Of a stretch of DNA of 64,000 nucleotides, positions 20,161 through 41,854 are shown one piece after another. Every line of letters starts with the position of its first letter. Position 1 is the stretch's first letter. Origin of the DNA: Marinoscillum furvescens DSM 4134 (GTDB lineage: Bacteria > Bacteroidota > Bacteroidia > Cytophagales > Cyclobacteriaceae); the NCBI RefSeq assembly GCF_003386095.1, contig NZ_QREG01000014.1:1-64000 (forward strand), written 5' to 3'. The notes beneath the pieces were generated by a model. That model was not told the DNA's origin, searched no databases, and was given only the letters and a program-made list of their open reading frames with translations. The translations under genes and the position numbers were made by a program.

Positions 20161-22452
<2,292 letters not shown>

Positions 22453-24596: not shown

Positions 24597-24630
24597 ATAA
24601 GCTCCTGCCTGAATTCGGCAGGAGCTTTCC
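24597..24630. terminator. bidirectional terminator
   Basis: Perfect 11-base stem AAGCTCCTGCC / GGCAGGAGCTT around a 7-base loop, between the convergent genes ending at 24562 and 24655. It also marks the end of the phosphodiester locus. Confidence 0.88.
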
Positions 24631-24654
24631 AAGATTCACACAGGTATGCTCTGA

Positions 24655-26742
24655 TTATTGCTTAAGGAACTTAAAGGTTTCTTGCGTGTCAGGACCACTA
24701 AATCGCACCATATAAAAGCCACGAGCAAGCGATTGCATATCGCAAGTAATAACGTTTGCACCTTTCTCTAATAGGTAAGTCTCGGTGTATAGAGTGGCAC
24801 CGCTCAGATTGACCACTTCCATGCGTACCTCACCTGATTGGGCGGCTAGCAACTGAACCGTCACAAAATCATACCCCGGGTTCGGATACAATTCTGAAGG
24901 CGTAGTTTGACCCATACTGCCGATTTCTTCCTCCTTATCGGCAATTCTAGCTTGCGCATTTTCCTCGGCAATTTCCTCCAATCGCAGCTGATCCATTTGG
25001 CGATAATTTAAAGCCCGATCGTAGACTTTAAAGCCTTCTACTTTCCATAGCAAATCCATCCTGTGAGCATATCCAAATCCAAATTCGTTGCACATAGAAA
25101 GGTCTTGCCCTCCCATATAGAGCAGTTCGGTATTGCCTCCATATCCAAGATCACCCCATTGAGCACTTCCCTCCCCTTCTGGGTATACTTTGATTCTTAT
25201 TATATCCTCTTTCACAGAATAAACCACCTTCTGCCAACCATTCTGAAAGACCTCAGGGTTCCAAAGACTCATTTGCCACCCTCTAGCAGGGTGGCTATAG
25301 TCGATATACCTTCCCAATACCATCTTACTACCCCGTTGATTAATACTGGCCAGATCAGTCTGAGCGCCCGATTGATACCATTTGATGATTGGCACATCAT
25401 GCTCTGAAGCAGCAGCTGAACTGGTATGATACCAGAAAGAAACAGTATAACCTGCTCCAGAAGGATCAAATATCTCATTGATTACCGATTGGGCATTGGG
25501 AAAAGTAATGTGCCCCTGTCCGGTGAAAGTCAAAGATGCATTTGGATTTCCGCTGCGTCCATAATCCCGGTTTACGTAGCCTATTGCTTCATCGGAAAAA
25601 TCATTAGATAACAAACCAGCAAATGTCGCTACCGAATTGCCGGAACTTAGTATCTCCAATTCCGCACTAACCTGTGGACGCAAGAAAATGCTATCTACTA
25701 CCGTACCTCCATTTTTTGTATTGTAAAAACTAAATTTCAGATCTTTCTTATCCGACTCGTTATATTGAATAACGTCTAGCTTGATGGCTCCCTTAGCCTC
25801 ATCATAGTGAACTGCATTTCCACTTACCAGTAGAGAAGGCTTCAAAAGTTTAGCATCAGGAAAACCTCCCAGACCATTGACCAGATACAAGACACCATCT
25901 TTCCAATTGCGCTCATAGTAGTGGTCATCACCAGCAATTACCGCATCTATACCCATCTCCGCCCAGTTCCACTTGCTCAAAGTAAGCGCAGTACCTCTAG
26001 CTCCCGGATCGGAAGAGTGTGGACTGGTATGTAAATACACTATTTTGAACAAAGCAGTTGAATTACTAGCTTCCTGAAGCAACCATTGGTGCTGCTGAGC
26101 CAGCAAATCATAATTCACAGAATCACAATGTGGATACGCCCCTGGGCAACCATCTACATATTTAGGCTCCACAGTATTGAGGGCAAAGAAATGAATAGAA
26201 TCACTCTGTCCTATGTTATAAGTGAAATCATAATACCGGCTACTGTTAGAAGAATTCTTCATCGATATAGCTGGGTGCTGATTGACTTCTTTATGCTTGA
26301 AATACGACTCCCAGATAATGATCTCCCCGTCATAGTCATGATTTCCAGGCACCGGGTAAAACCTATTATAAGGAGGTGCTGAGGAGTTTCTGTAGTTCGA
26401 ATTGACATTCTGAGTCTCCAGTGTGGTCCCTTGATAGTCCGTATATGTATTGTATGGATAGATATAATCCGCGTAGTATCTCCCCACATCATCATCCATT
26501 GTATTGGTGGGGCATGCCGGAAAATCCCGAGCACCACCGTAGTGATTGTCTCCACTGGTAAGTATCACTGATGGGTTCCACCCTTTCACCAGTGAGGATA
26601 CAGCCAATGCGGAATCTCCCTCGCAACCATAATCTGATATATGTGCAAGTGTACTGAGCGTAGTGTAAGTCTGAGCGGAAAGCGAAGAGACACCTGCCAA
26701 CCATACAACTAGTAGTATTAAAGATTTACTGAATTGTCTCAT
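24655..26742 (-). CDS. secreted metallophosphoesterase with LamG-like domain and T9SS sorting tail
   Basis: 695 residues with a signal peptide (WLAGVSSLSAQ). The calcineurin-type phosphoesterase domain (about 30-310) shows HISDYG, TSGDNHYGG, PVPGNHDYDG, HTSPHSS and AGDDHYYER, the full metal-ligand set. A concanavalin/LamG-like domain follows at about 370-580. The C-terminal 80 residues (SELYPNPGYDFVTVQL ... GFYMVRFSG) are a type A T9SS sorting domain, so the protein is exported and anchored at the cell surface. Last gene of the minus-strand operon; one untranslated base separates it from the GDPD fusion gene. Likely a phosphatase or phosphodiesterase finishing extracellular phosphate release. 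Confidence 0.88.
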   Translation of the reverse strand: MRQFSKSLILLVVWLAGVSSLSAQTYTTLSTLAHISDYGCEGDSALAVSSLVKGWNPSVILTSGDNHYGGARDFPACPTNTMDDDVGRYYADYIYPYNTYTDYQGTTLETQNVNSNYRNSSAPPYNRFYPVPGNHDYDGEIIIWESYFKHKEVNQHPAISMKNSSNSSRYYDFTYNIGQSDSIHFFALNTVEPKYVDGCPGAYPHCDSVNYDLLAQQHQWLLQEASNSTALFKIVYLHTSPHSSDPGARGTALTLSKWNWAEMGIDAVIAGDDHYYERNWKDGVLYLVNGLGGFPDAKLLKPSLLVSGNAVHYDEAKGAIKLDVIQYNESDKKDLKFSFYNTKNGGTVVDSIFLRPQVSAELEILSSGNSVATFAGLLSNDFSDEAIGYVNRDYGRSGNPNASLTFTGQGHITFPNAQSVINEIFDPSGAGYTVSFWYHTSSAAASEHDVPIIKWYQSGAQTDLASINQRGSKMVLGRYIDYSHPARGWQMSLWNPEVFQNGWQKVVYSVKEDIIRIKVYPEGEGSAQWGDLGYGGNTELLYMGGQDLSMCNEFGFGYAHRMDLLWKVEGFKVYDRALNYRQMDQLRLEEIAEENAQARIADKEEEIGSMGQTTPSELYPNPGYDFVTVQLLAAQSGEVRMEVVNLSGATLYTETYLLEKGANVITCDMQSLARGFYMVRFSGPDTQETFKFLKQ

Positions 26743-26743
26743 T

Positions 26744-29725
26744 TTATTCCTTGATTTTAATCGCTAGAAAAGTGGCCAAATGCCTGTAAGGCATCTCTGC
26801 CTTTTTGCCATGAAATTGCTCCAGGTGTGTCTGGTCAATACCCTGAGGAACAGTCCCGGCTGTAATATTAGGCGAAGCTGGAAACTTAATATTTGGTAAG
26901 CTGCCTACCGAGGTAAGCATTGCCGCCGATTTACCTGAGTCCATCAGGATGACGTCATCGCAGTTATAATGATTTACTAAAAGTTTTGCCGCTTGATGAA
27001 CTCCCAATCCCTTTTGTAAGCCATGATGCGCTGATTGTACCGCCTGTACCGTGACAATGTACATTTCAGTAGGACCTTGATGATTGTACTTAAGCCCAAC
27101 AACCGTCCGCATTTTTACCTTTTGATCATTGTTAAATTTCTGTGTGATATTGTTGTAGGATATTTCTACTCCCCCGGTGGCAATCTGATAGCCTGAGACC
27201 GCTTGTAGCACTTTGACTCCATCGTAATGCCTACGGATCACACCCGTTGTTGCATCCAGGTAGTTTCCATGCGTAATAGTGTGCGGGCTTACTATTTCGA
27301 TTTCCCCATTTTCAAGAAACATCATGGCATCAAAGCGACCGTCATAGTATGAATCAGGAATACATTCGCCGTTTGCATCCTTAATGCAGGCTCCAGAAGA
27401 TCGACCTGATGGATCGTAACTCTCATAAACATAGGATACCTCAACACCATTGCTAATGGACAAGCCATATATATCCGTACACGGTAACCAGAATTCTGGT
27501 CGTTCACGAGCACTTTGGCTCCCTGTCCAGCCATTGGTAGCCCAATAGTTCGAATTCAAGTAAATGTCATAACCGGGATATATCTCAGACCACTCCGCAA
27601 TTGTTCGATGCGGGAACACAAACTTTGCCTGCATAGGCGCGTTCTTTAGATCCACAAGGGTGGATGTATCATAAAGCTGTTGACACGTCAAACCTTCAGC
27701 AGTGGTGTAGTTATACCCATTGTAAAACTTATAGGATACCGAATCTTTAGTAACCCCCGCTGGTAAATAGGTGATGTTGCTCGAGGGACTTGAGGTTAAT
27801 TCTGGCAACTTCGTCATACCTACTTTTATGGGGTCAGTCTTCACGGGGTGGTTTCTCGTGTCAGGCACAAAGAACTCCACTTTACTGACATCCGGTATGT
27901 GAAGAGCTATTCCCTCAAAGTCAGTCAGGTTTTCCGTTTCTGTCACCGTATTCGGGTCAGGGTAGCTACCCGATCCTGAAGGCACTGGAAAAACGGTCAG
28001 GTAATCCGGAAAGGCCACCCTTTTAATGACTTGCTCCGACTCATCCCGCATGTTTGCTGCGTTCAAATAATCCAGCAATAAGTCAGGCCTATCATGAATG
28101 ACATAGGTAGGTTTGGCAGTATTAAATACCCAGTCCAAACTTCCTCGTCCATCATTAAAAAAATTAGGTTTCTGATGAGCCTGATAATTGGGGTTATGAT
28201 AATATTCCCTTACCGTTGTTTCACACGAGTTATTGGTATTCAACACCCCGTTTGGCTGATCAGCAGTAAAGATAAACACCCCTAACCTCACGCCTTGATC
28301 CTGAAGCCACTGCAGCAACCCTGACTCTACAAGAGGATCGCTATTTACTTTAAAGTGAGTTTCTACGGCTTTGATACGTCCAGCCTTAATGTCATTGTGC
28401 CACTGTACCTTGAAGCTATGGAAACAATTAGTACCCTCATAGCCATATTGACCTCCAGAGGATCCGCTTCCGCCAGATGACGACCCATCGCCGGAGCCTG
28501 GCCCTCCGGAGCCTCCTCCCGACGAACCGCTACCGGAGCCTCCTCCTGTGGAAGAGCCACCATAGCATTGAGACCAAAAACCATCTCCATACAAAACGGG
28601 TGTATAATTCACATTGGCGAAACTTAAAGTATCGCTCACCTGATGCATTAGCTGCGTAATCTTATAATGATCTGCAGACCCTTTAAAAATTACGGTCTTT
28701 AACAAATCCTTTTGAACAACCAACTCCAGGCATTGCTTGAAAGCATTGTCCCAGTCTGTCTGTGTATCCTTGATATCCAAACTGATTAGTGCTTTGTTTC
28801 CAAGCTGGTCCAGAAGCTGCTCAAGTGAATTGATATTGTACTGGGTGACCGCCCCAAAACGATCATAGGTAGGCTGCCCCATCAAGTAGGAAGCGGTGCG
28901 GGTTTTGATGTTATCATCTTTTTGCCCTGTGTTAGGATCTACAATGCATGGATCGTGTAGCAGCATAGGAACACCATCCATAGAGGTGCGAATATCCACT
29001 TCCAGCATGTCTGCTCCCAGTACTAAGGCACGTCTGCACGCCTCCACTGTATTTTCTGACACACCGGCCTCCGCCCAATATCCTCTATGAGCAGCTACCA
29101 AACTATAGTTAGGATAGTCGCCTCTATTGTTGAACTTGTCCAACGCACGCTGTTGGTCCAGGGAAGGAGCAAGGTGCACATGATACCCTCCAGGTAATGC
29201 TATATCCTCAATATCCGACAACTCTACATCCTTCACCCGTACTTTAATTAGCACTGAGAGCGTTTGACCTTTAAATGACGACCCTCGCCCTAGAATATCC
29301 ATTAAGTAATTCTCATAGTCATCAGAGAAATGATACCTGTTTTTTATAAACCTATCTTCACATACATCTCCATTCAGCAAGGCTGCGGCCTTTTGCCACC
29401 AGGTACATCGGTCCCACAATTCTTCTACGTATAAACGATATCTTTGAGCATGAAATTCCCCGGAATCTCCATCGCCATAATATTCCATTCCATAGAAAAA
29501 AGCGACACTTTCACCTGCCGTTTGCAAGACATCATTGGCATACATATCAACTCGCACACGACCATTTCCAGACCATGTTCCTTTAATACCTTTTACCGTC
29601 TTATTTAGTCTATACAAATCCCTTACCTTGATCTCGCGCTCAAACTCATAAACGCGCTCATTGGCAAAAAGAGCTGCCGAAATGAACTGAACGGTTATAA
29701 TTATTAAATAAGCCCTACTTCTCAC
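26744..29725 (-). CDS. glycerophosphodiester phosphodiesterase fused to phosphodiester glycosidase (NAGPA-like) domain
   Basis: 993 residues with a signal peptide (about 1-21). After about 180 residues of unknown beta-rich sequence comes a GDPD barrel: AAHRGYW (H213), ENT, LEVDIR, LLHD (H257), closing with VIHDRPDLLLDYL. The barrel is interrupted at about 390-428 by a Gly/Ser-only insertion. The C-terminal 250 residues resemble the phosphodiester glycosidase family, with MRTVVGL, GLGVHQAAKLL and VILMDSGKSAAML in the order seen there, although the usual LDGGGSS reads MDSGKSA. It would cleave both glycerophosphodiesters and sugar-1-phosphodiesters. Its start overlaps the upstream gene by 11 bases. 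Confidence 0.82.
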   Translation of the reverse strand: MRSRAYLIIITVQFISAALFANERVYEFEREIKVRDLYRLNKTVKGIKGTWSGNGRVRVDMYANDVLQTAGESVAFFYGMEYYGDGDSGEFHAQRYRLYVEELWDRCTWWQKAAALLNGDVCEDRFIKNRYHFSDDYENYLMDILGRGSSFKGQTLSVLIKVRVKDVELSDIEDIALPGGYHVHLAPSLDQQRALDKFNNRGDYPNYSLVAAHRGYWAEAGVSENTVEACRRALVLGADMLEVDIRTSMDGVPMLLHDPCIVDPNTGQKDDNIKTRTASYLMGQPTYDRFGAVTQYNINSLEQLLDQLGNKALISLDIKDTQTDWDNAFKQCLELVVQKDLLKTVIFKGSADHYKITQLMHQVSDTLSFANVNYTPVLYGDGFWSQCYGGSSTGGGSGSGSSGGGSGGPGSGDGSSSGGSGSSGGQYGYEGTNCFHSFKVQWHNDIKAGRIKAVETHFKVNSDPLVESGLLQWLQDQGVRLGVFIFTADQPNGVLNTNNSCETTVREYYHNPNYQAHQKPNFFNDGRGSLDWVFNTAKPTYVIHDRPDLLLDYLNAANMRDESEQVIKRVAFPDYLTVFPVPSGSGSYPDPNTVTETENLTDFEGIALHIPDVSKVEFFVPDTRNHPVKTDPIKVGMTKLPELTSSPSSNITYLPAGVTKDSVSYKFYNGYNYTTAEGLTCQQLYDTSTLVDLKNAPMQAKFVFPHRTIAEWSEIYPGYDIYLNSNYWATNGWTGSQSARERPEFWLPCTDIYGLSISNGVEVSYVYESYDPSGRSSGACIKDANGECIPDSYYDGRFDAMMFLENGEIEIVSPHTITHGNYLDATTGVIRRHYDGVKVLQAVSGYQIATGGVEISYNNITQKFNNDQKVKMRTVVGLKYNHQGPTEMYIVTVQAVQSAHHGLQKGLGVHQAAKLLVNHYNCDDVILMDSGKSAAMLTSVGSLPNIKFPASPNITAGTVPQGIDQTHLEQFHGKKAEMPYRHLATFLAIKIKE

Positions 29726-31301
29726 CGCTTCTCATTTTTAATAATTCAATTTCCAACGCTTGAATGGCCTTCTGCTGCTCTATGGTGTACAACGTAAGTT
29801 CTTCTATTTTCTGCATCATGATTACATTCATCTCATGAACGGTGTAACCATTGGCTTTTACCTCCTGGGCTGATGGAACGTTCGGCAGGTGTCCTTTTTG
29901 ATTAATATAGCTCTCTACATCCTCAAGGCTTTCTAGCTTATAATCCTCTTCAAATACAAAATCAGCCCATTCATGAGGGTCTGCAAGTGCAAAATCCCTA
30001 CTCACAATCCCTTCGCTTACCCACATAGAAAAGGTATCATTAGCATTCAACGTAAACGAGGTATCCTGTAGCGATCTCGAATATTGGATATAAGCACTAT
30101 CCCCTACAAAGACCTTTTTCTGACCCGCAGAAACATGAAAAACCTGCCCTAAACCATCAGATGCCTCTACATGAAAACTCCCTTTTACGTGAAGCGGTAC
30201 AATGGGGTCTGATGTACCTACGCCAAGGTTACCTCTTTTGAGTACCATATCTACAGCACCACCACCTGCATCTAGCGAGGTATCACTGTGATAGCCGTCT
30301 CTATACCAGGCAAAGTTGTTGGATCGGAAATAGGTAGTCTGGCTGTCCTGAAAACCTATACCGTAATCATCGTTATTCAGGTTGATCAACTGCCCATAAC
30401 CTTCTCCAAAGTACATCTCTCCGCTGGTCAGCGTTAAGCCATCTCTACCAATCATATGTCCATTAACATCCAAATGAGCACCAGGACTCAACGTACCAAT
30501 CCCCAACCTGCCCTGATGTGACAACATCATTTTTATTTCTCCAGCAGTTGTAGTGGTTCTATCCTTCACAAAGTGTAAGTCACCGTCGTAGTTTTGAAGT
30601 AGCGCAAAAGAGCCTACACCGAGCTGCTGGAAACTAATGCCCACGTCGCCCTGGCCATCACGTGTTAAGGAGGTTACTATTCCATTCGCTGGATTAGCAT
30701 CATGTACTTGAAACTGTGAAACAGGCGTGGTGATATCCCCAATGGCTACATCACCTGTTGCCGTGATCCGCATGTGCCTTTGTCCGGGAGAGTCTCTGTA
30801 CAGGTTATTTCTAAACTCTATACCTCCTATGGATGGATGCAAAATACCATAGGAACTATATGCTTCTTGTGTAAATGAAATCCCCAAATCACCCTGTCCT
30901 TGTCGCGTAAAGGATCCCACTATTCCATTTTTGGAAGATGGGTCTGCTTCATGCACATGAAATCTCGTCCAGGGTGTAGCACGGCCAATTGAGAGATCCC
31001 CATCTTTCAATACCATATCCAAAAAACCACCCCCAGGGTTAAATTCGGTTTGGTTATGCGTGCCTCCACGGTACCAGGCAAAATTGTAGTCCGACCGGAA
31101 GTATTGTGTATGGTTTTGAACTCCTATCCCGTAGTTGGTTTGCCAGAAATTTATCTTTTGACCTCCACTCAGATCAAAATATAAATAGCCGGTATTTGGG
31201 GTCTGTGCAAATGTGGTTTGACTCCATAAAAACAAGCAAAGTATAAGCCACCCTATCCCAAAGGGTCGCTGAATGGGTAAAAGGTTGATAGTGTTTTTCA
31301 T
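29715..31301 (-). CDS. tail-fibre-like repeat protein with C-terminal coiled coil
   Basis: 528 residues with a signal peptide (LILCLFLWSQTTFAQ). The chain has repeated units: YFRSDYNFAWYRGGTH and YFRSNNFAWYRDGYH, each followed by GGG..DMVLK.G.L..G, and two GQGD.GISF segments. The C-terminus (GHLPNVPSAQEVKANGYTVH then MNVIMMQKIEEL and a heptad-rich helix) is the ending shared by many Bacteroidota fibre-like proteins, probably a trimeric stalk. No endosialidase-type self-cleavage site is recognised. Sitting inside the phosphodiester operon it may be a surface adhesin or binding fibre for the same substrate. There are no phage genes nearby. Confidence 0.75.
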   Translation of the reverse strand: MKNTINLLPIQRPFGIGWLILCLFLWSQTTFAQTPNTGYLYFDLSGGQKINFWQTNYGIGVQNHTQYFRSDYNFAWYRGGTHNQTEFNPGGGFLDMVLKDGDLSIGRATPWTRFHVHEADPSSKNGIVGSFTRQGQGDLGISFTQEAYSSYGILHPSIGGIEFRNNLYRDSPGQRHMRITATGDVAIGDITTPVSQFQVHDANPANGIVTSLTRDGQGDVGISFQQLGVGSFALLQNYDGDLHFVKDRTTTTAGEIKMMLSHQGRLGIGTLSPGAHLDVNGHMIGRDGLTLTSGEMYFGEGYGQLINLNNDDYGIGFQDSQTTYFRSNNFAWYRDGYHSDTSLDAGGGAVDMVLKRGNLGVGTSDPIVPLHVKGSFHVEASDGLGQVFHVSAGQKKVFVGDSAYIQYSRSLQDTSFTLNANDTFSMWVSEGIVSRDFALADPHEWADFVFEEDYKLESLEDVESYINQKGHLPNVPSAQEVKANGYTVHEMNVIMMQKIEELTLYTIEQQKAIQALEIELLKMRSGEK

Positions 31302-31308
31302 AGTATCG

Positions 31309-32589
31309 TTAATTGATGGTTATGTTTTTGATATAAAGTGTTTGTCCCTGACTGTCTAGAAACTTGATCGTGAGCAAGTCTTTGCTAATAGTCAGCAGAC
31401 CAAAATTTCGCTGCTGAATGTGAGACCCGGGGAGTCGATAAACATTTATATCGTCCCGTGTATTTACATTGGCAGTGAGTGGTGACGAGGCAAATTCATA
31501 AAGTTGATTACCATTGGGCAAAGCCATAGAACTGACCTCCGAAAAGTGCTTATCACCTGTGAGAAAAATAACGTTGTTAATGCCGTTTGCTTCCAGCTCA
31601 TCCAGGAGCCATTGGCGCTCTTCCGCATAGTTGACGATGTAGTTTTGACTCAGCGGATTATCCATAGAAGACAAAAAGAGTCCACCCATCACCACTACTT
31701 TTACCTTTGCTTCGCTAAAAGCCAGGGCGTCTACCAACCACTCTCTTTGCACTTCTCCCAGTACTGTCCGGTTGCCAGAAGACCGCTTCTGAGGCGAACG
31801 AAAAGAACGATTGTCTGTAAGAAAAAAGTCTACATCACCCCAGCTAAATGCTGTAGCTATTCCTCCTACTGCTGGATGTGACGGTGGGTTGGCCCAAAAG
31901 TGGTTGAACCATTTCAATGCGATTTCTTTGCCCACAAAGCTGCGATCAGAATCGTTTGGTCCATAGTCGTGATCATCCCAAATCGCATAATGTGCTGTGT
32001 TGGCCAGTAGTGCCTGCATCTCTGGAAGCTGACGGGTGTGACTGTAACGGTACGCAAAGCCTTCTTCAGTACTCCAGTCTTGCGGACGTAAATAAATGTT
32101 ATCCCCCAACCAAAACATCAGCTGAGGACCTTGCTCAGCGATTGCTTCGAATAGCTCATATTCTCCCCCTTTGTATCGTCTGTCAGTCGTAGAGTCATTG
32201 ATGTACACACAGCTACCAAATGCAATTTTCAATGGATCTGCTCCTGAGTAGCCGGCAGGTGGAGGTGTTTGAAATGAACCCGACGAAAGTACCTGACTTG
32301 CAACCAACACATCATACTCATACCTGGTGTTAGGCACCAACCCACCTAGTTGTATTTGTGCGGTAAAGGCCTTAGAAGCCAACGAGGTAGAAGGCAGACT
32401 GACCAGCTCAGAATGTGAGGCATTAACCGGTCGGTAGCGACACGTAAAGGTGCCTGACACGTCAGATTGGATCCATATCGTGGCGGTTCGCTCCGTTACA
32501 TGCCCTACCATTGGTCCAGCTGTCAGCTTTTGTCCTTTGGCAAAATGTAAGGAAGCCATCAAAAGGCATACACTAATTAGGATCCTCAT
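31309..32589 (-). CDS. phoD: PhoD-family alkaline phosphatase/phosphodiesterase
   Basis: 426 residues with a signal peptide (about 1-19). An N-terminal fibronectin-like domain (GPMVGHVTERTATIWIQSD) is followed by the metallophosphatase domain: FGSC (Cys127), WLGDNIY (D163), IWDDHDYGPND (D205-H207) and FLTGDKHFSEVS. PhoD enzymes bind iron and calcium and cleave phosphomono- and diesters; the Bacillus enzyme attacks teichoic acid. The 4-base overlap with the GDPD gene upstream shows tight coupling. Expected location is periplasm or surface. Confidence 0.93.
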   Translation of the reverse strand: MRILISVCLLMASLHFAKGQKLTAGPMVGHVTERTATIWIQSDVSGTFTCRYRPVNASHSELVSLPSTSLASKAFTAQIQLGGLVPNTRYEYDVLVASQVLSSGSFQTPPPAGYSGADPLKIAFGSCVYINDSTTDRRYKGGEYELFEAIAEQGPQLMFWLGDNIYLRPQDWSTEEGFAYRYSHTRQLPEMQALLANTAHYAIWDDHDYGPNDSDRSFVGKEIALKWFNHFWANPPSHPAVGGIATAFSWGDVDFFLTDNRSFRSPQKRSSGNRTVLGEVQREWLVDALAFSEAKVKVVVMGGLFLSSMDNPLSQNYIVNYAEERQWLLDELEANGINNVIFLTGDKHFSEVSSMALPNGNQLYEFASSPLTANVNTRDDINVYRLPGSHIQQRNFGLLTISKDLLTIKFLDSQGQTLYIKNITIN

Positions 32590-33479: not shown

Positions 33480-33571
33480 GTATTTTTCGGTCCAGTGATG
33501 GAGGCCATCTCTTAAGCTACACTTGACTAGCCGTCAACGATGACCTCCTTTTCACTATGAGAAAATTAACC

Positions 33572-35029
33572 TTACAATCCTGATCTTTTTAAGTTTCGAC
33601 CTCTGGTAGGCCATGCAGAGTCAGCCAAGCCTGACGCTGACACCTGAAGTCCATATACATTGCCGCTGTAATCCTGAAAATAAATATTTCCTTCATCTGT
33701 AAGTGCCGGAGAAGTCCAAATGGCCTGATCCCAACGCTCAGCAGGGTCATCTGTAGCTACCTTGTAAGTAAACTTAATGCTACCATCCTCCTTGAATGCA
33801 TACAGATTGCCATCGTTGAAAGTAACGTAAATGGTACCATCAGCCCCTACTGTAGGTGTGCCAAGCACATCGCTTTGAAAGGATGGCTCTTCGGAATCTG
33901 GCGCAAAATCATGTTTCCATTTCTCTGTTCCATCAGCACCGATAGCATAGAAAATAGCTGCGCTGGTCAAGCCACCTCTTTTAGTTCCAGTATAGATGGT
34001 ACCATCTGTACCCAAAACTGCACCTCCAAGAAACGGGTTGTTGTCAGCTGTAGTGAACGTCCATTTTGCTGTTCCGTTGGTATTTACTGCATGAAATACC
34101 CCGGCATCATCACCAAAATAAACCACTCCCGCATCATCCAGAATTGGAGATGCATTGAGCGTGGCCCCAGCATCATACGTCCACTTTGAGGTACCATCAG
34201 CTTTGAGGGCATACAGCTTGCCGTCCTGAGAGGCCAGGTAAATAGTACCATCCTTAGCCAGAGCTACATCTGTCCTGATTTTTCCACCAGTTTCGAAAGT
34301 CCAGACATTTGAGCCAGATGAGGAGATCGCATGGAGCTTGTTATCATCTGCACCCTGATAGATTGTACCATCACTTCCTATGACTGGCGAAGCATTAAAA
34401 ATAGATGCCTCGAACGGATATTCCCATGACTTACTTCCACTACTTGTGAGTGCATAAAGCTTGCTATCCTGCGCCGGTACGTAAATGGTACCATCTGCGC
34501 CTACTGCCGCATGTGACCGTACTTTACCACCAGTGGCAAAAGTCCATTTGACTGAGCCATCCTCTGGGTTGACGGCATAAACATTGAAATCTTGTGAACC
34601 AAAGTATAATGTACCATCAGCGCCTACAGCCGGAGCTGAGGGTGATATACTAGCTGTTCCTATTTGTGCAGTCCACAACTCTTTAAAGGAAGTAACGGAG
34701 ATCTCTAATGAATAATGAGCAGTAGCTTCCTTATCATCTGATACTGTGAGGCTGACAGTATAGTCACCAGCCTCTGCATAGGTATGCGTTGGGTTTTGTT
34801 CGGCAGAAGTATTGCCATCACCAAAATCCCAGGCCCAGCTAGTGATTTCTCCATCATTGTCTCCTGACTGATCAGTAAAAGCAATCTCGTCACCCACGGT
34901 AGCGGCAGTTGGAGCTGCAGCAAATAGCGCAACGGGTAGTTCGTTTTCCTTTTCGGGCTCATCCTCAGAACAAGCAGATAAAAGACACAGTCCTAGCAAG
35001 AGTACTGCAAGTGAAGTGTAATAATTCAT
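33572..35029 (-). CDS. lipoprotein with PKD domain and PQQ-type beta-propeller
   Basis: 485 residues with lipobox LLSAC (Cys20). One PKD domain (about 32-115; WDFGDGNTS, HTYAEAGDYTVSLTV) is followed by about eight repeats of the form DGTIY.G..D..LYA....G...W, the PQQ-like propeller. It lies directly after SusD, where SusE/SusF-type surface glycan-binding proteins normally sit, so it is probably the surface ligand-binding partner of this SusCD pair. There is no sign that it binds a real PQQ cofactor. Confidence 0.85.
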   Translation of the reverse strand: MNYYTSLAVLLLGLCLLSACSEDEPEKENELPVALFAAAPTAATVGDEIAFTDQSGDNDGEITSWAWDFGDGNTSAEQNPTHTYAEAGDYTVSLTVSDDKEATAHYSLEISVTSFKELWTAQIGTASISPSAPAVGADGTLYFGSQDFNVYAVNPEDGSVKWTFATGGKVRSHAAVGADGTIYVPAQDSKLYALTSSGSKSWEYPFEASIFNASPVIGSDGTIYQGADDNKLHAISSSGSNVWTFETGGKIRTDVALAKDGTIYLASQDGKLYALKADGTSKWTYDAGATLNASPILDDAGVVYFGDDAGVFHAVNTNGTAKWTFTTADNNPFLGGAVLGTDGTIYTGTKRGGLTSAAIFYAIGADGTEKWKHDFAPDSEEPSFQSDVLGTPTVGADGTIYVTFNDGNLYAFKEDGSIKFTYKVATDDPAERWDQAIWTSPALTDEGNIYFQDYSGNVYGLQVSASGLADSAWPTRGRNLKRSGL

Positions 35030-35070
35030 GATTTGATTTTTGAAGTTTAATAATTAGAAATTGATGCGTT

Positions 35071-36765
35071 TTAATAATTTTTTCGCTGTGTGAAGCGGCC
35101 TTCACTGAGGTCCACTTCTGTAGCGGGTATTGGAAAATACTCGTGTTTCTTTTCGAATATGGCCGATTCCATGTAGGGCCTTCTGGTTTTCTCCACACGG
35201 AGGTATTCGTTCATGACATCCTTAGCAATACCCCACCTTACCAGATCAAAAAAGCGGTGCCCTTCCATAGCAAATTCAAGGCGCCTTTCGGTTCTGAGTG
35301 CCCAAATAGCCTCCTCGTAGCTGGCAAAGGAGTCGTCATAGGTGGAAATCGCATAGGGTGCGGCCGGGCTTGAGTCCATTGCAGTCACTACAGGGGCATT
35401 TTTAGCCCGCTCTCTTACCAGGTTTATATATGCTCTACCGCCATTCAGGTCCCCTTGCTCTATGAGTACCTCGGCCTTCATCAGGTAGACGTCCGCAAAT
35501 CTTAAGATGCAGTAGTTTTCGCTATTGGTATAGTAAGGAATGTCCATCACCTGATTACCTGATGGAGAGTAAAGCTGCTTTTTTCCCGCAAAGGGCCCAT
35601 AGGTGCTTACCCCCCTCGTCCACGACTCCTCATAGATTCCCGCATCCAAAAACGGAATGCCTGGTCTGCCCACAGTATGATCTAGCCGAGGGTCTACGGG
35701 AGTAGTGAGCGAAACATTGGAGCGATTGAAATCTATTACAGGCAATCCGTCCGCATTCGTTTTAAAGGCATTTACCAGGTTTTGTGAAGGCTTATGAAAC
35801 CCGTACACCCGGGGATACGGCCCTCCAAGTCCGCTGAGTCGATCCCCTACATTGCCATCCCAGCCATAGGTAGCGCCCACGTCAGGAGTAGACGAAGGCA
35901 ACGTAGGATCTAAAGAATGCTGAACAGAAAATATACACTCTGGGCAAAACTCCGCACCATTTTCATTGATGTTTAAAAGAAATATTTGCTCAAAATCTGA
36001 CATGAGATGATGCTGTCCGGGGTTGGCGATCACTTCATCTAAAGCTGCATCGGCAGCTGCCCATTCTTGCTGAAACAAATGTGATTTTGCCAGGTATGCA
36101 TTGGCCACCACGCTGGTCATACGCCCTACGTCTGCCTGGACTGCAGGTAAATGCTGCGCACCAAATCGAAAATCTGCCTCAATCTTATCCCATAGTTGAT
36201 CAGAAGTATAAGCTGTATTGGTGACCTTTTTTAGATCTGCCACAGACATAGTCTCATCTATATAGGCTATCTGATCAAATACCTTCTTTAGCTCAAAATA
36301 GTAATGCCCCCTTAGCACTCTCACTTCAGCTAGTCTCAAGTTCTTTTTGCTTTCTGACCAATGTGGAAAATTACTAATGATATTGATGGCACGATTGGCT
36401 CTGGAAATGCCCTCATAGCATGCCTCCCATTTGACTAACACCGCCTGTACACTGGCATCTGCCTGAAATACTTCGAGCTGATGGACATCACTACCGTCAG
36501 ATATCCCACTACTCCCTTTGTATGCATCGTCAGACACCACGTCTCCATATACCCAGTTTGAAGGCCCACTTCTATGGGCATTGGTGATTTGATTGTATTG
36601 TCCATTGAGCATACTATACACACCAATAACCACTCCCTCCACGGCATCTTCGGAGGTTTCAAATACATTTTCACTGAGCTCACCTTTGGGACTTACCTCT
36701 AAAAAATCCTCACATGCCCCGAGCATAAGCCCTACAAGTGTGAGTAAGAAAAATTGATTTTTCAT
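35071..36765 (-). CDS. SusD/RagB-family outer-membrane nutrient-binding lipoprotein
   Basis: 564 residues with lipobox MLGAC (Cys18) and the SusD opening EDFLEVSPKGELSENVF. The tetratricopeptide-like helical core and the C-terminal hallmark ALRTERRLEFAMEGHRFFDLVRWG are clear. It forms the lid of the SusC transporter and captures ligand at the cell surface. Only 11 bases separate it from the SusC stop upstream. Its ligand cannot be read from sequence; the enzyme genes that follow point to a phosphorylated polymer rather than a neutral polysaccharide. Confidence 0.95.
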   Translation of the reverse strand: MKNQFFLLTLVGLMLGACEDFLEVSPKGELSENVFETSEDAVEGVVIGVYSMLNGQYNQITNAHRSGPSNWVYGDVVSDDAYKGSSGISDGSDVHQLEVFQADASVQAVLVKWEACYEGISRANRAINIISNFPHWSESKKNLRLAEVRVLRGHYYFELKKVFDQIAYIDETMSVADLKKVTNTAYTSDQLWDKIEADFRFGAQHLPAVQADVGRMTSVVANAYLAKSHLFQQEWAAADAALDEVIANPGQHHLMSDFEQIFLLNINENGAEFCPECIFSVQHSLDPTLPSSTPDVGATYGWDGNVGDRLSGLGGPYPRVYGFHKPSQNLVNAFKTNADGLPVIDFNRSNVSLTTPVDPRLDHTVGRPGIPFLDAGIYEESWTRGVSTYGPFAGKKQLYSPSGNQVMDIPYYTNSENYCILRFADVYLMKAEVLIEQGDLNGGRAYINLVRERAKNAPVVTAMDSSPAAPYAISTYDDSFASYEEAIWALRTERRLEFAMEGHRFFDLVRWGIAKDVMNEYLRVEKTRRPYMESAIFEKKHEYFPIPATEVDLSEGRFTQRKNY

Positions 36766-36776
36766 TTTGTTGAATG

Positions 36777-39700
36777 CTAGATTTCTAAATTGAGACCGAT
36801 AATGAACATGCGTGCATTTGGATAAATCCCCCGGTCTATACCTATGTCCAGATTATTCTGTTGTCCATCGGCCTGCAGTACGCTGATCTCCGGGTCTACT
36901 CCCTGATACTTCGTCATGGTGAACAGGTTTTGAGCCTGCACATACACCTTACAGCTTGTCTCTTTAATGCGTGGTAGCTGATAGCTGGCCTGAATATTTT
37001 TTAATCGAAAGTAAGAGCCGTCTTCTATGAAGTAGGTAGAGGGGCGCAGTTCATTGTTGATATCTACAGCTGCTACCATTGGTACGGAAGCATCAGTATT
37101 TGTGGGAGACCAGGCATCCAATACGCGACTATGGCGATTGCCCAGGTCATAAAAGAAATCGGTGTAATAGCGGGTAAAGTTGTAAATATCAACTCCAAAA
37201 ACACCTTGTCCCAAGACCTTAAGATCAAACCTTTTATATTGAAAATACAGATTTACACCCCCGATTAGCTCAGGATGTGGACTACCTATAAACGTACGAT
37301 CCCTGTCATCTATAATCCCATTTTCGTCCAAATCTCTATACCTAATACGACCTATGCCCGCCCCTTCTTGCTGTGCATGTGACTGTACCTCCGGCTGTGA
37401 CCCAAAGATGCCATCTGCTATGTGTCCATAAAACTGAGCAATGGGCTGTCCCACTTGCGTCACTGCCAAAGTGAGGTCACGAGAAAAGGTGGTATTGACC
37501 GGACCTGTGAGCTGCACCACGTCATCAGCTAGTTTCTTCACCTCATTTCTAATCACACTCATATTGACAGACGCTCCAAATGCAATATCGTCCTCAATCG
37601 CCTGGTCATAGCCCAGTACAATTTCTAACCCGTGGTTAAACATTTCTCCAATGTTCACAAAAGGAGCATTGGCCTGACCTTCAATGGCGAGTGTGGGACG
37701 CTGAATCAAGATATCTTTCGTAACCTTCTGGAAATAGTCGAAAGAAGCACTCAGCCCGAAATCGGTGGCTAAATCAACCCCAAAATTGGTCTGTGTGGTT
37801 GTCTCCCATTTCACATCTTCATTACCAACTCTCGTTGGCTTAAACCCAATTTGAGCTTTATCATTGGAGCCGTCTATAGCGTAGTAGGTATCCCAGGCGT
37901 CAGCAGAATAGGTGGAGAAGTAGCTAAAATCTCCTATTTCCTGATTCCCGCTTTGTCCCCAGGATGCTCTCAGCTTCAATTCTTGCAGCCATTCGAAGCT
38001 TTTCAAAAAAGACTCCTGAGAGACCCTCCAACCTGCAGAAAATGCTGGAAAATGAGCAAATCTGTTGTCAGGACTAAATCGGGAAGACCCATCCCGCCGT
38101 ACAGTAGCTGAGAACAAGTATTTATCGTTATAACTGTAATCTAACCTGCTAAAAAAAGACAAAAGCGCCCATTCACTACCTCCACTAAAATTGGAGCTTT
38201 GGCCACTTCCATTGTTTAGCTGTATATAGTCGATATCATCGGACACAAAACCGGTACTTGCTCCTCCCGAAAAATTGGCCTGGTAGCGTATCGCTTCAGT
38301 ACCTGCCAGTGCGGAGAAAAAGTGTTCACCAATGTTTCTTTTATAAAGTAAGGTGTTACTGGAAACGAATTGTGCTATTCGTTCATCTCGCTGCAAAAAC
38401 GAGGTTTCGCCCCGCTCCGTAATGCCCATATGGTATTCCGGATCATAATTTTTGGTATTTCGAGCAATCAGGTCCAAACCAAATCGTGATTTTACAAACA
38501 AGCCATCCGCCAACTCATATTCAGCATACATGCTACCAAATGCACGTAGTGTACTTAGTCGATCGTCCTGATCTAAGTAATTTAGTGCTACCGGATTCAC
38601 CGCTCCCTGAATCCCACTTACAGGCCCGGCAAAATTCCCTTCCAGATCTCTCACCGGCACGATGGGATTCATTCTATAGGCATGAATGATACGAGATCCC
38701 GTAGCCTGATTTGTAGGCGCTGACTGCTGAGTGACACTGCTGAGTGAAAGGTTTTCACCAATTGTCAATTTACCTAATGTTGCAGATGTATTCAACTGCA
38801 CATTGTACCTGGCAAAGTTTGTATGCTGCATGATTCCGGACTGCCGGAGATGAGATACCGATAGGTAATTACTAAGTTTTGCAGACGTATTTTGAACAGA
38901 CACGGCATAGTGCTGGACACTCCCCGGGTCAAAAAGTTCTTCAAACCAATCAGTACCGGACGTATTGGCGGGCACAATGCCTTCACTATCCAGAAACTCT
39001 GGGATCACTGGCGATGCACCATTTCCAAATAGATCATTGGATGGCGCCACGCCAGAATTGAGCTGTGCAGCCCATAGCAGGTCTGCATACTCCTGTGTAT
39101 TGAGCATGGTAGGTAAATTGGTAGGCATCATAACACCTCCGTAAACATTGGCTGATATTTTGGCTGCCTCACCTCCTCCAGATTTGGTAGTGATTACAAC
39201 CACCCCATTGGCTGCCCTGGAGCCATAGATAGCTGTGGCTGCTGCATCCTTTAGTACCTGAACACTTTCTACATCATTGAGATTAAACTGATTGAGACCA
39301 CTTTTGGTCGGTACTCCATCCACGATGTACAGTGGGTTATTGTCTCCTACTGTGGCAAATCCTCTAATACGCACTACAGCCTCTGCTCCGGGAGCACCTG
39401 TACTACTCACCTGCACGCCGGGCACTTGCCCCTGCAGTGCCTGATCCAGCCCTGCTACTGGCAAACTTTTGATCTGTGATTCATCTACTATGGAAATAGC
39501 GCCAATGATGTCCCGGGTTTTGGCAGATGTATACCCGACCACCACCACGGCCTCCAGGTCTTCAGTTTTAGGTTTTAGTATGATTTCGTATTCGGTCACT
39601 CCAATTTTGATGGGAAGTGATATGGTCTGGTACCCCACCGAAGAAATCACCAGCATATCAGAAGAATCAGGCACGTTCAAGGAAAATGCACCATGAATGT

Positions 39701-40190
39701 CGGTAATGGTTCCTATGCTCTTATTGGCGAGTTTTATGGTAGCACCAATCAATGGCTCTCTGGTTTCACCATCCAGCACCACCCCTCCAATTTGGAAATC
39801 ACTGGGGATCTCAATAACTGCCGGTTGGTCATCTGATTGTTTGCGCGAGATGTAGATGGCATTGTTGATTCTGCGAAACCGGAGGTTATGTGATTTGCTC
39901 AACTTTAGCAGAATAGTGCGCAAGTCGGACTCTGGAAAAATATGAATCTTGCCAGTGTGTCTTTTCAGCACTTGCTTACTATAAAAAAAACTAAAATCAG
40001 ATGTAGCCTCAATCTGGCTGAGTACTTCCTCTACAGTGGAGTACCGGGCCACAGAGACTTTTACCTCTTCTAGCGACTGCCCTGAAAGTGTACCGGCTAG
40101 CAACAACTGACAAGCAAGTAGCTGGGCTAAAAAAATATAAACGAAAGTCCTGGATAAACGCACAAATAGGTCAATTAGCTCCCTTTGCAT
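36777..40190 (-). CDS. SusC/RagA-family TonB-dependent transporter with STN signalling domain
   Basis: 1137 residues from the ATG at 40190, which precedes a signal sequence; the frame opens 11 codons earlier. Domains in order: STN domain (about 45-120, VEEVLSQIEATSDFSFFYS), carboxypeptidase-like domain (GVVLDGETREPLIGATI), plug (VRIRGFATVGDNNPLYIVDG ... VQVLKDAAATAIYGSRAANG) and 22-strand barrel ending MFIIGLNLEI. The STN domain contacts a FecR anti-sigma factor, and fecR and an ECF sigma gene lie just upstream, so ligand binding should induce the locus. It imports the product captured by SusD. Confidence 0.95.
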   Translation of the reverse strand: MQRELIDLFVRLSRTFVYIFLAQLLACQLLLAGTLSGQSLEEVKVSVARYSTVEEVLSQIEATSDFSFFYSKQVLKRHTGKIHIFPESDLRTILLKLSKSHNLRFRRINNAIYISRKQSDDQPAVIEIPSDFQIGGVVLDGETREPLIGATIKLANKSIGTITDIHGAFSLNVPDSSDMLVISSVGYQTISLPIKIGVTEYEIILKPKTEDLEAVVVVGYTSAKTRDIIGAISIVDESQIKSLPVAGLDQALQGQVPGVQVSSTGAPGAEAVVRIRGFATVGDNNPLYIVDGVPTKSGLNQFNLNDVESVQVLKDAAATAIYGSRAANGVVVITTKSGGGEAAKISANVYGGVMMPTNLPTMLNTQEYADLLWAAQLNSGVAPSNDLFGNGASPVIPEFLDSEGIVPANTSGTDWFEELFDPGSVQHYAVSVQNTSAKLSNYLSVSHLRQSGIMQHTNFARYNVQLNTSATLGKLTIGENLSLSSVTQQSAPTNQATGSRIIHAYRMNPIVPVRDLEGNFAGPVSGIQGAVNPVALNYLDQDDRLSTLRAFGSMYAEYELADGLFVKSRFGLDLIARNTKNYDPEYHMGITERGETSFLQRDERIAQFVSSNTLLYKRNIGEHFFSALAGTEAIRYQANFSGGASTGFVSDDIDYIQLNNGSGQSSNFSGGSEWALLSFFSRLDYSYNDKYLFSATVRRDGSSRFSPDNRFAHFPAFSAGWRVSQESFLKSFEWLQELKLRASWGQSGNQEIGDFSYFSTYSADAWDTYYAIDGSNDKAQIGFKPTRVGNEDVKWETTTQTNFGVDLATDFGLSASFDYFQKVTKDILIQRPTLAIEGQANAPFVNIGEMFNHGLEIVLGYDQAIEDDIAFGASVNMSVIRNEVKKLADDVVQLTGPVNTTFSRDLTLAVTQVGQPIAQFYGHIADGIFGSQPEVQSHAQQEGAGIGRIRYRDLDENGIIDDRDRTFIGSPHPELIGGVNLYFQYKRFDLKVLGQGVFGVDIYNFTRYYTDFFYDLGNRHSRVLDAWSPTNTDASVPMVAAVDINNELRPSTYFIEDGSYFRLKNIQASYQLPRIKETSCKVYVQAQNLFTMTKYQGVDPEISVLQADGQQNNLDIGIDRGIYPNARMFIIGLNLEI

Positions 40191-40217
40191 ATCTTTGTAT
40201 TGAAGTTTAATAATTCT

Positions 40218-40235
40218 GATCATGTACCCATGATC
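40218..40235. promoter_or_regulatory. inverted repeat in the susC leader
   Basis: GATCATG-tacc-CATGATC, 7-base arms, 28 bases upstream of the chosen susC start. It could be an operator or an RNA hairpin. Confidence 0.35.
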
Positions 40236-40245
40236 ATGTTTTATG

Positions 40246-40288
40246 AAGGGTTTGAAGCTGTTGGAGCAGCGTCAAGCCCTTTTTTTAT
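40246..40288 (+). terminator. hairpin with T run on the strand opposite to the operon
   Basis: AAGGGTTTGA pairs with TCAAGCCCTT, with GCTG/CAGC inside, followed by seven T on the plus strand. No plus-strand gene ends here. On the operon strand the hairpin has no T run behind it, so it should not stop fecR-to-susC transcription as an intrinsic terminator. It may block antisense transcription or form a leader or processing hairpin. Confidence 0.5.
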
Positions 40289-41205
40289 TCACAAGCACTC
40301 CCGCTTAAAATGATTCGTCCATCGTCCTTTTTGATAAGCTGAAGTCCTGGCAGTGCATATTGTAGTCCTTGAATCACATTGGTGAAGGGTTCATTTTCAA
40401 AGCGCCCCATCAGCAAACAATCTCCAATAGCTCCACGAACCTCAATATTCACATCATAAAACTCGCCAATAAGCTGTACCCCCTCACTTAAAGACAAATC
40501 GCGTAAATCCACAATGCCTGAACTCCATCCGACATACTGCGCAATGTTGATGTCTGCTTGTTTTTCCCAGCTTCCTTTTTGGTTGGTCACCAATTCATTG
40601 GGATGCAGGATAAATTTCGCCGACTGGTTATGTACGGCTACTTTACCAGTTTTCACAGCTACGGTGAAATGATCATTTGCATAAGCCTTTACATTAAAGC
40701 TTGTCCCCAGGACACGAGTGATTCCCTGTGTGGTGTGTACTTCGAAAGGCCTTTGCTCATCACGCGACACTTCAAAAAAAGCCTCCCCTGTCAGTTTGAC
40801 TATTCGTTTACCTTCAAATTTTTCAGGAAACTCGATTTTACTGCTGCGGTTGAGAATCACCTCTGATCCATCTGGCAAAGCAACTTTACTCCGGTGAGAG
40901 GAATCTGTACTGGCCACCTGCCAGTTGGGTGTCGCTTGCCACTGTACGTGATACAAGAGTACCCCTATAGCACTCACCAATACAAGCATAGCGGCTATCT
41001 TCCAAACATTGTGGAAGGGTTTTGCATCCTCACGCAGGATGCGATTTAGCTGCTGCTCCTTCACCAACTGAAGGTTGGAGGCATCTGAGTCCTTGTTTTG
41101 CTGCTCCAGACGCTGACAGATCTCCTCATAAAGAGACCGCTCACCTGGTGAGCAGTTACCTGACTCATACTTTCTTGCCAGAAGTTTAAATTCTTCTTGA
41201 TTCAT
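40285..41205 (-). CDS. FecR-family anti-sigma factor
   Basis: 306 residues. Cytoplasmic N-terminal part (about 1-70), one membrane span (VWKIAAMLVLVSAIGVLLYH, about 68-90) and a periplasmic FecR domain (SHRSKVALPDGSEVILNRSS ... GEAFFEVSRDEQRPFEVHT ... VLGTSFNVKAY), then a C-terminal STN-like segment. It holds the ECF sigma factor inactive until SusC signals. Sits between the sigma and susC genes on the same strand, the standard trans-envelope signalling arrangement of Bacteroidota. Confidence 0.95.
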   Translation of the reverse strand: MNQEEFKLLARKYESGNCSPGERSLYEEICQRLEQQNKDSDASNLQLVKEQQLNRILREDAKPFHNVWKIAAMLVLVSAIGVLLYHVQWQATPNWQVASTDSSHRSKVALPDGSEVILNRSSKIEFPEKFEGKRIVKLTGEAFFEVSRDEQRPFEVHTTQGITRVLGTSFNVKAYANDHFTVAVKTGKVAVHNQSAKFILHPNELVTNQKGSWEKQADINIAQYVGWSSGIVDLRDLSLSEGVQLIGEFYDVNIEVRGAIGDCLLMGRFENEPFTNVIQGLQYALPGLQLIKKDDGRIILSGSACE

Positions 41206-41290
41206 TGAAATTCTATTCGGCTTTATAGAGAAGTACCGAAAAGAAGTAGGGTCAGGTACACGAAAATTAAACTTTACCTATGCGTAATAT

Positions 41291-41854
41291 TCAGATAACA
41301 TGAAGCAACGCCCAAAGCAGGCTAACTGTTGCTTTTAGCTTTTTTAGGGCACGTTTAATCTGTGTTTCTACAGTATGCTCTGAGAGGTTGAGTTTTTCAG
41401 CAATCTGCCTGGTAGAAAGGTGCTGCTCACGGCTCATCTTAAATATTTCTTTGCAACGCTCTGGAAGTGCCTCAATAGATGCCCCTAGTCGTAACTCCAG
41501 CTCCTTCCCATACAGCTCCTCTTCGATACTGTCTGGCACCGCATACTCCTTTAGAACCTCTAAAGTTTCTTGTGGAAACTTCATTCGATCTATGTGTTTA
41601 GCTGCCTGATACCTAAGCGCTTGAAACAGATAAGCACTTACGTTTTCGATAAATACTGTTCCCCGTCTTTCCCACAAGTCCATGAAGACGTTTTGGGTCA
41701 AATCAGCCGCAGCAGCTTCATCACGCAAGATACCAAAGGCTCGTCTGTACAGTCGGTCCCAGTAGCGGTTAAAAAGCTCTTTAAATGCCACCGAATTGCT
41801 AGAAGCTATCAGTGGTATCAGTGCCTCATCGGATACATTTTTCATCTTAGGCAT
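41291..41854 (-). CDS. ECF-type RNA polymerase sigma factor
   Basis: 187 residues. Region 2 (SVAFKELFNRYWDRLYRRAFGIL ... DLTQNVFMDLWERR) and region 4 (ALPERCKEIFKMSREQHLSTRQIAEKLNLSEHTVETQIKRALKKLK) match the Bacteroidota ECF family that pairs with FecR. It should transcribe the SusCD locus, perhaps only this one. The Met at residue 4 is an alternative start. An ATTCTTT-ctta-AAAGAAT inverted repeat lies just upstream at 41867-41884 and could take part in its regulation. Confidence 0.93.
   Translation of the reverse strand: MPKMKNVSDEALIPLIASSNSVAFKELFNRYWDRLYRRAFGILRDEAAAADLTQNVFMDLWERRGTVFIENVSAYLFQALRYQAAKHIDRMKFPQETLEVLKEYAVPDSIEEELYGKELELRLGASIEALPERCKEIFKMSREQHLSTRQIAEKLNLSEHTVETQIKRALKKLKATVSLLWALLHVI

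Follow-up and report, generated by a model that had tools for sequence, protein, structure and literature searches.

Ten genes on the minus strand of a 64-kb stretch of the Marinoscillum furvescens DSM 4134 genome (contig NZ_QREG01000014.1, positions 1 to 64,000; hereafter the window) probably encode a SusCD-type system for the uptake and degradation of organic compounds with glycerophosphodiester bonds, resembling the published PusCD systems (PUS); we put the probability of this reading at about 0.62. The genes, at 24655-41854, are numbered 1 to 10 in the order ECF sigma factor, FecR, SusC, SusD, PKD/propeller lipoprotein, glycerophosphodiester phosphodiesterase (GDPD), PhoD, fibre-like protein, large GDPD protein and metallophosphoesterase, and all coordinates are those of the window (Table 1). 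The evidence consists of direct observations: gene content and order, domain families, the active-site residues of the GDPD, and the recurrence of SusCD-GDPD clusters, some with a transporter, in other Bacteroidota.

The open reading frame (ORF) coordinates and the Pfam and NCBIfam matches agree with the gene ends, families and order of the original prediction, which was made by inspecting the sequence. Its claim of several 1-11-base junctions also holds for five of them: there are gaps of 11 bases at susC-susD, 7 at phoD-fibre and 1 at gene 9-gene 10, and overlaps of 4 bases at GDPD-phoD and 11 at fibre-gene 9, the remaining gaps being wider at 85, 61, 41 and 92 bases. The proposed terminator was borne out in part: a stable hairpin follows gene 10 (minimum free energy -26.1 for 76 nt, z -3.6; 1/200 shuffles equally stable), but its U-tract is weak and it is absent from the list of a consensus terminator scan. 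It is likely to be a weak or bidirectional terminator. GDPD matches at E 0.001 number four in the 5.96-Mb genome and two of them lie inside the 17-kb locus, for which a rough estimate gives a chance of ~5e-5. The common strand, short junctions and hairpin, together with a similar order of gene types in two relatives (loci L072 and L207, below), argue against the ten genes being no single unit, with a generic SusCD pair lying by chance upstream of unrelated phosphoesterases; the 41-base SusD/propeller gap, the 92-base propeller/GDPD gap and a window SusD lineage unlike the GDPD-linked SusDs would suit that reading, which we regard as very improbable.

The locus has the adjoining, same-strand susC and susD of a SusCD-type utilisation locus, and its order of sigma factor, FecR, SusC, SusD, surface lipoprotein and enzymes, like the lineage of its SusD, recalls classical polysaccharide utilisation loci (PULs). 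It differs from these in its enzymes: no glycoside hydrolase (GH), polysaccharide lyase or sulfatase enzyme model matches any of the ten proteins (Pfam, E 0.01), as originally claimed, and the one or more carbohydrate-active enzymes that define a PUL were not found among them. Among such models, a generic carrageenase beta-propeller model alone matched, to the propeller protein of gene 5. In place of these enzymes, GDPD, PhoD and Metallophos genes provide the co-location of a SusCD-like pair with phosphodiesterase and phosphatase genes that is characteristic of PusCD. The SusC assignment is secure, but the claimed STN domain is less so, since residues 63-125 of the N-terminal extension match FecR_C/PF16344 below its cut-off (0.0015) and do not match the STN model; the label 'STN-like' is our reading.

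The GDPD of gene 6 retains H49, R50, E76, D78 and H91, which are invariant in 25/25 aligned gene-6-type GDPDs, and genes 6 and 9 both combine a PF03009 match with the HR, E-x-D and HD residues of the family. A profile built from these 25 proteins confirmed at least 593 relatives in named genomes, of which the best 80 were analysed (67 from Bacteroidota, 12 from other phyla and 1 of unassigned phylum). Partners were counted within five same-strand genes, with the centre gene fixed on the matched strand, and 20 GDPD loci that matched more weakly, all from the family to which the window belongs, served as controls. SusC/SusD lay near the GDPD in 35/67 Bacteroidota loci compared with 4/20 controls (Fisher P 0.02) and a GlpT/UhpC-like major facilitator superfamily (MFS) transporter in 19/67 compared with 0/20 (P 0.005), with the caveat that the control taxon is narrower than that of the test set and related genomes are not independent. 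Both partners occurred together in 11 of the 67, and neither was present in any of the 13 loci of other or unassigned phyla. Typing of ten among these 19 transporters gave TIGR00881 (PgtP) as the best model for all ten, followed by UhpC or GlpT models, with scores below the equivalog cut-offs, so 'organophosphate transporter family' is a fair description while the cargo is unproven. These counts support a SusCD-GDPD linkage that extends well beyond the genome of the window, often with a putative GlpT/UhpC-like inner-membrane transporter.

Recurrence is also visible in gene order. FecR, SusC, SusD and GDPD are consecutive on one strand in 7/20 loci of one set of relatives (L084, L085, L089-L093) and consecutive in 6/20 non-control loci of a second (L102-L105, L107, L110). 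In a genome of the same genus (G004), locus L072 reads FecR-SusC-SusD-PKD/GDPD-PKD propeller-GDPD-organophosphate-type MFS, followed by three ORFs (two on the opposite strand) and then a fibre and a large GDPD-like protein; a 214-residue ORF before FecR resembles a sigma factor by reading and carries no family label. The closest layout to the window's extended cassette was found in a Fulvivirga metagenome-assembled genome (MAG; L207), with sigma-FecR-SusC-SusD-GDPD-fibre-NAGPA-large GDPD-LamG/type IX secretion system (T9SS) protein; PhoD is absent from this cassette, and the LamG/T9SS protein at its end does not match Metallophos. SusD, a Pfam-confirmed PKD/propeller protein, GDPD and a GlpT-like gene occur in Phocaeicola intestinalis (L144), Aestuariivivens sediminis (L143) and a Cryptobacteroides MAG (L164), so that equivalents of gene 5 adjoin SusD and GDPD in these three loci and in L072. 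Fibre homologues lie near large GDPD proteins in L072, L108, L193 and L207, where the large proteins of L072 and L193 score below the Pfam GDPD cut-off and are named by similarity to gene 9 and by reading. When 147 other genomes of the family were searched (at most seven candidates scored in each), a single relative of gene 10 reached E<=1e-15, in a locus (L121) with SusCD and a large GDPD.

Several observations weigh against this reading of the locus. Among the GDPD loci, 32/67 have no SusC/D within five genes (on the upstream side, 20 of all 67 loci hold fewer than five ORFs), and fibre and PKD propeller are minority partners (2/67 and 6/67). FecR-SusC-SusD-GDPD stand consecutively in a control locus too (L125). 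The comparison of gene order across Bacteroidota that the original prediction had proposed upholds the SusCD-GDPD(-transporter) arrangement but not PhoD, which was rejected as a conserved partner because it occurs within five genes in 0/67 GDPD loci. The window locus, for its part, has no GlpT-like transporter, and the three best TIGR00881 matches of the genome (139-144 bits) lie outside it; PhoD and gene 10 may take the transporter's place by releasing phosphate outside the inner membrane.

The lineage of the SusD weighs in the same direction. On a tree of 106 SusDs (a quick method, with several long branches), the 61 that are GDPD-linked, with a GDPD within four same-strand genes, cluster strongly, with 11 changes versus 34.5 under shuffling (0/500 shuffles as low), which itself speaks for the glycerophosphodiester reading. 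The window SusD lies outside the GDPD-linked clades and groups with 32 other SusDs in a clade of 33 rows (support 98), whose rows were chosen for similarity to it and so carry an ascertainment caveat. Inspection of all 32 clade-mate surroundings found a same-strand GDPD near SusD in 0/32, two of them (L250 and L254) ending early at contig ends; in clade-mate locus L064 a GDPD is present on the opposite strand. The three nearest SusDs share 43-48% identity with the window's (BLAST), at which common ligands are not assured, and the four nearest SusD loci (ten proteins each) hold, one apiece, an alpha-L-rhamnosidase, a 3-keto-disaccharide hydrolase, a DUF218 protein and a GH32. In the GDPD locus L143, too, SusD is followed by a DUF218 protein. 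Most simply, the window lineage would have joined a SusCD pair of sugar-type ancestry to a phosphodiester cassette. The surface phosphodiester system first proposed from the sequence is thus favoured by the SusCD-GDPD linkage and the Fulvivirga cassette and disfavoured by the company of its SusD; orthologous SusCD pairs without these enzymes, named at the outset as evidence that would count against it, were encountered in part, as the 32 nearest SusDs. Separately, parallel phosphodiester cassettes occur in two genomes of the same genus, G004 (L072) and that of the window, whose SusCD pairs are only distantly related.

This ancestry would suit a phosphorylated or phosphodiester-linked glycan, of which SusCD binds the sugar part while the phosphoesterases remove phosphate or glycerophosphate. 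The window SusD groups with those of the GH78-type rhamnosidase, GH32 and 3-keto-disaccharide hydrolase loci, the C-terminal end of gene 9 weakly resembles NAGPA, the NAGPA of the Fulvivirga cassette scores above cut-off, and some GDPD loci elsewhere hold GH92 or GH65. The ten genes themselves include no glycoside hydrolase, so the breakdown of freed sugar chains would depend on enzymes encoded outside the locus, and we consider such a substrate unlikely. Two Mucilaginibacter loci (L172 and L174) have SusC-SusD, a 677-681 residue protein and GDPD in a row, with GH92 in that of L172, an arrangement that would fit a phosphomannan-type substrate. A second SusCD lineage (L076, L097-L100, L118) is followed by a weakly neutral-ceramidase-like protein (below the Pfam cut-off in L076), GDPD and, mostly, a purple-acid-phosphatase-like protein, possibly a lipid-headgroup locus separate from the window's.

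Gene 9 was originally described as a fusion of GDPD and phosphodiester glycosidase. The GDPD half of this description is confirmed (PF03009, matched at residues 213-324), but the C-terminal stretch gives no Pfam match to NAGPA (PF09992) at E 0.01, and a six-frame search of the whole genome for NAGPA returned nothing at E 10; on these empty searches we rejected gene 9 as a proven phosphodiester glycosidase. A profile comparison (hhalign) aligned the C-terminal end with NAGPA in register, from the R-T-x-x-G to the D-G-G-G-S signature, though weakly (pairwise P 0.016, 1/150 shuffles as good); the score was 24.4 compared with 20.9 for the unrelated gene 5 propeller, and the motif is DSGKS, not DGGGS. 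Gene 9 and the Fulvivirga NAGPA protein showed no significant similarity by BLAST, the C-terminal end found no match among PDB sequences, and an alignment-free structure prediction of residues 360-993 had a pLDDT of 31.8. We retain a NAGPA-like phosphodiester glycosidase as likely but unproven, because the Fulvivirga locus, where a NAGPA protein (34.1 bits against a cut-off of 25) adjoins a large GDPD, lends indirect support.

The remainder of gene 9 is distinctive. An undescribed N-terminal module (residues ~22-205; 29111-29662, minus strand) ends in a conserved PG motif, and a like module precedes large GDPD or NAGPA domains in L072, L108, L121, L193 and L207 (profile match to other large proteins P 2e-5, 0/100 shuffles as good). 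A profile search with this module across 395 genomes and a search with the C-terminal 474 residues across 295 genomes each matched the window's own genome alone, and a scan of genome contigs with the whole of gene 9 confirmed no relative. A Gly/Ser-rich insert (residues ~389-426) lies within the GDPD-bearing part.

Table 1 Features of the locus, with window coordinates and supporting matches.
Feature	Coordinates	Strand	Support
Gene 1, ECF-type RNA polymerase sigma factor	41291..41854	-	TIGR02985 139.6 bits, above cut-off; PF08281/PF04542
Gene 2, FecR-type anti-sigma regulator	40285..41205	-	PF04773 3.7e-18
Gene 3, SusC/RagA TonB-linked outer membrane transporter, N-terminal STN-like extension	36777..40223	-	TIGR04056 835 bits, TIGR04057
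Gene 4, SusD-family lipoprotein	35071..36765	-	PF07980, PF14322; lipobox C18
Gene 5, PKD and PQQ/BamB-like propeller lipoprotein, predicted surface binding protein	33572..35029	-	PF18911, PF13360, PF13570; lipobox C20, then SEDEPE
Gene 6, GDPD with C-terminal DUF4996	32586..33479	-	PF03009, PF16387; probable lipoprotein (by reading)
Gene 7, PhoD-like phosphatase/phosphodiesterase	31309..32589	-	PF09423 4.6e-27, PF25077
Gene 8, fibre-like repeat protein	29715..31301	-	By reading, a signal peptide and a coiled coil at the C-terminus; no match in Pfam or NCBIfam
Gene 9, large secreted GDPD protein, 993 residues	26744..29725	-	PF03009 48.9 bits
Gene 10, secreted metallophosphoesterase with T9SS C-terminal sorting tail	24655..26742	-	PF00149, PF18962; TIGR04183 above cut-off
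Hairpin between convergent genes, after gene 10	24598..24632 (about)	.	GC-rich

Elsewhere in the window, an ORF at 20161-22428 (minus strand) that resembles a catalase-peroxidase (KatG-type by reading) starts with an apparent lipoprotein signal, suggesting a putative exported form of this usually cytoplasmic enzyme.

In Bacillus, GlpQ and PhoD, of the GDPD and PhoD families, act in wall teichoic acid turnover, and the window encodes the same pair of families. A Gram-positive teichoic acid (a glycerol-phosphate polymer) would therefore be one specific candidate substrate; SusCD suits large ligands, and GDPDs of two sizes could perform exo- and endo-cleavage. The Bacillus systems have no SusCD, however, and neither window enzyme comes near the cut-off of the corresponding model. 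With NF058638 (Bacillus-type PhoD; cut-off 1000 bits) PhoD scores 47.3 bits; with PRK11143, which we take to be GlpQ (cut-off 254 bits), the gene 6 GDPD scores 44.6, and the best NCBIfam model for this GDPD is PRK09454 (77 of 264). No peptidoglycan- or wall-active enzyme occurs among the ten genes, and no paper linking SusD to teichoic acid use was found in titles and abstract openings. Nothing points to teichoic acid specifically, and we judge it quite an unlikely substrate. Searches of titles and abstract openings likewise found no description of a locus type joining SusC/SusD to glycerophosphodiesters, GDPD, teichoic acid or PhoD, and no mention of DUF4996 was found in the literature searched, with subscription papers and preprints outside the scope of both.

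The idea that SusCD pairs serve organic phosphorus is not new. PusCD complexes, which are SusCD-like, induced when phosphate is depleted and encoded together with phosphodiesterases and phosphatases, have already been published, with lipid headgroups and nucleic acids given as examples of the phosphodiesters that they may target (PMC8115612; summarised again in PMC8812569), and the suggestion that a SusCD phosphodiester locus would be a new substrate class must be withdrawn. The window resembles Flavobacterium johnsoniae PUSI and PUSII in pairing SusCD-like genes with phosphodiesterases and phosphatases in place of carbohydrate-active enzymes and, as in PUSI, in its ECF sigma factor (PMC8115612). 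It differs in having a GDPD with DUF4996, a PKD propeller, a PhoD partner, a fibre and a large GDPD, which the consulted text of PMC8115612 does not describe for the F. johnsoniae PUS; moreover, induction by phosphate depletion has been demonstrated there and is putative for the window.

A strict phosphate-scavenging PUS, induced at low phosphate through the Pho response and importing organophosphates for phosphorus rather than carbon, is an alternative that we think somewhat less than evenly probable. In F. johnsoniae PUSI, which is induced by Pi depletion, PusC and PusD are accompanied by an ECF sigma factor and by two phosphodiesterases, among them a pf00149 protein, and PUSIII has a sigma factor and FecR next to a TonB-dependent transporter (PMC8115612). 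The sigma factor of PUSI makes ECF/FecR control compatible with phosphate regulation, and genes 7 and 10 are phosphatase-type. Pho-box-like sites, however, occur in the window at chance frequency (8 versus 6.7 expected) and none lies upstream of the sigma gene, by an E. coli-type consensus that may not apply. In addition, the terms 'GDPD' and 'GlpQ' are absent from the main text of PMC8115612, and the relatives pair GDPD with a GlpT-like transporter, which suits the use of whole glycerol-3-phosphate.

Two further reports list or map GDPD genes together with SusC/D-type genes. In Bacteroides thetaiotaomicron, an iron-response table lists BT4724-25 (TonB receptor, SusD) and BT4727 (GDPD family) as expression rows (PMC10434189); SusC/D-type genes and a GDPD, the combination also present in the window, stand three locus tags apart there, with adjacency inferred from the tag numbers, but the table assigns them no function. 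This organism would offer a convenient laboratory model for such loci. In Flavobacterium IR1, a GDPD gene appears on the same map as the susC/D/E of a starch-type PUL, which differs from the window locus in having GH13, GH65 and GH97 (PMC9131120).

For the glycerophosphodiester reading that we prefer, we infer the substrate, direction of flow, localisation and induction of the locus as follows, the localisations resting on signal sequences and analogy. The ligand would be caught at the cell surface by SusD and the PKD/propeller lipoprotein, whose lipobox is followed by an acidic leader, and trimmed there by the T9SS-exported metallophosphoesterase, with the fibre protein perhaps trimming or holding it. 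SusC would then import the ligand, powered by TonB. Phosphodiester bonds may next be cut in the periplasm by both GDPDs, the lipoprotein and the large protein, to give glycerol-3-phosphate and an alcohol or sugar, after which PhoD would free phosphate. Once it has bound ligand, SusC could use its N-terminal extension to pass a signal to FecR and the ECF sigma factor and so switch the locus on.

We also offer, tentatively and as a rather doubtful extension, that a 'glycerophosphodiester utilisation locus' (ECF sigma-FecR-SusC-SusD-[PKD propeller]-GDPD-organophosphate transporter) recurs in Bacteroidota including gut Bacteroides, importing glycerophosphate-containing macromolecules, such as the teichoic acids or phosphoglycans of other microbes, as food for carbon and phosphorus. 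The window would then be an elaborated chimera, with a SusCD pair of sugar type and a large secreted GDPD bearing an undescribed N-terminal module. SusCD pairs are generally regarded as importers of sugars, and a locus combining GDPD with a transporter would add a testable non-sugar ligand. Such loci, found in Cytophagales, Flavobacteriaceae and Bacteroides, would tie SusCD import to phospholipid or teichoic-acid turnover in soil, sea and gut, and this reading of the GDPD locus predicts a function for DUF4996.

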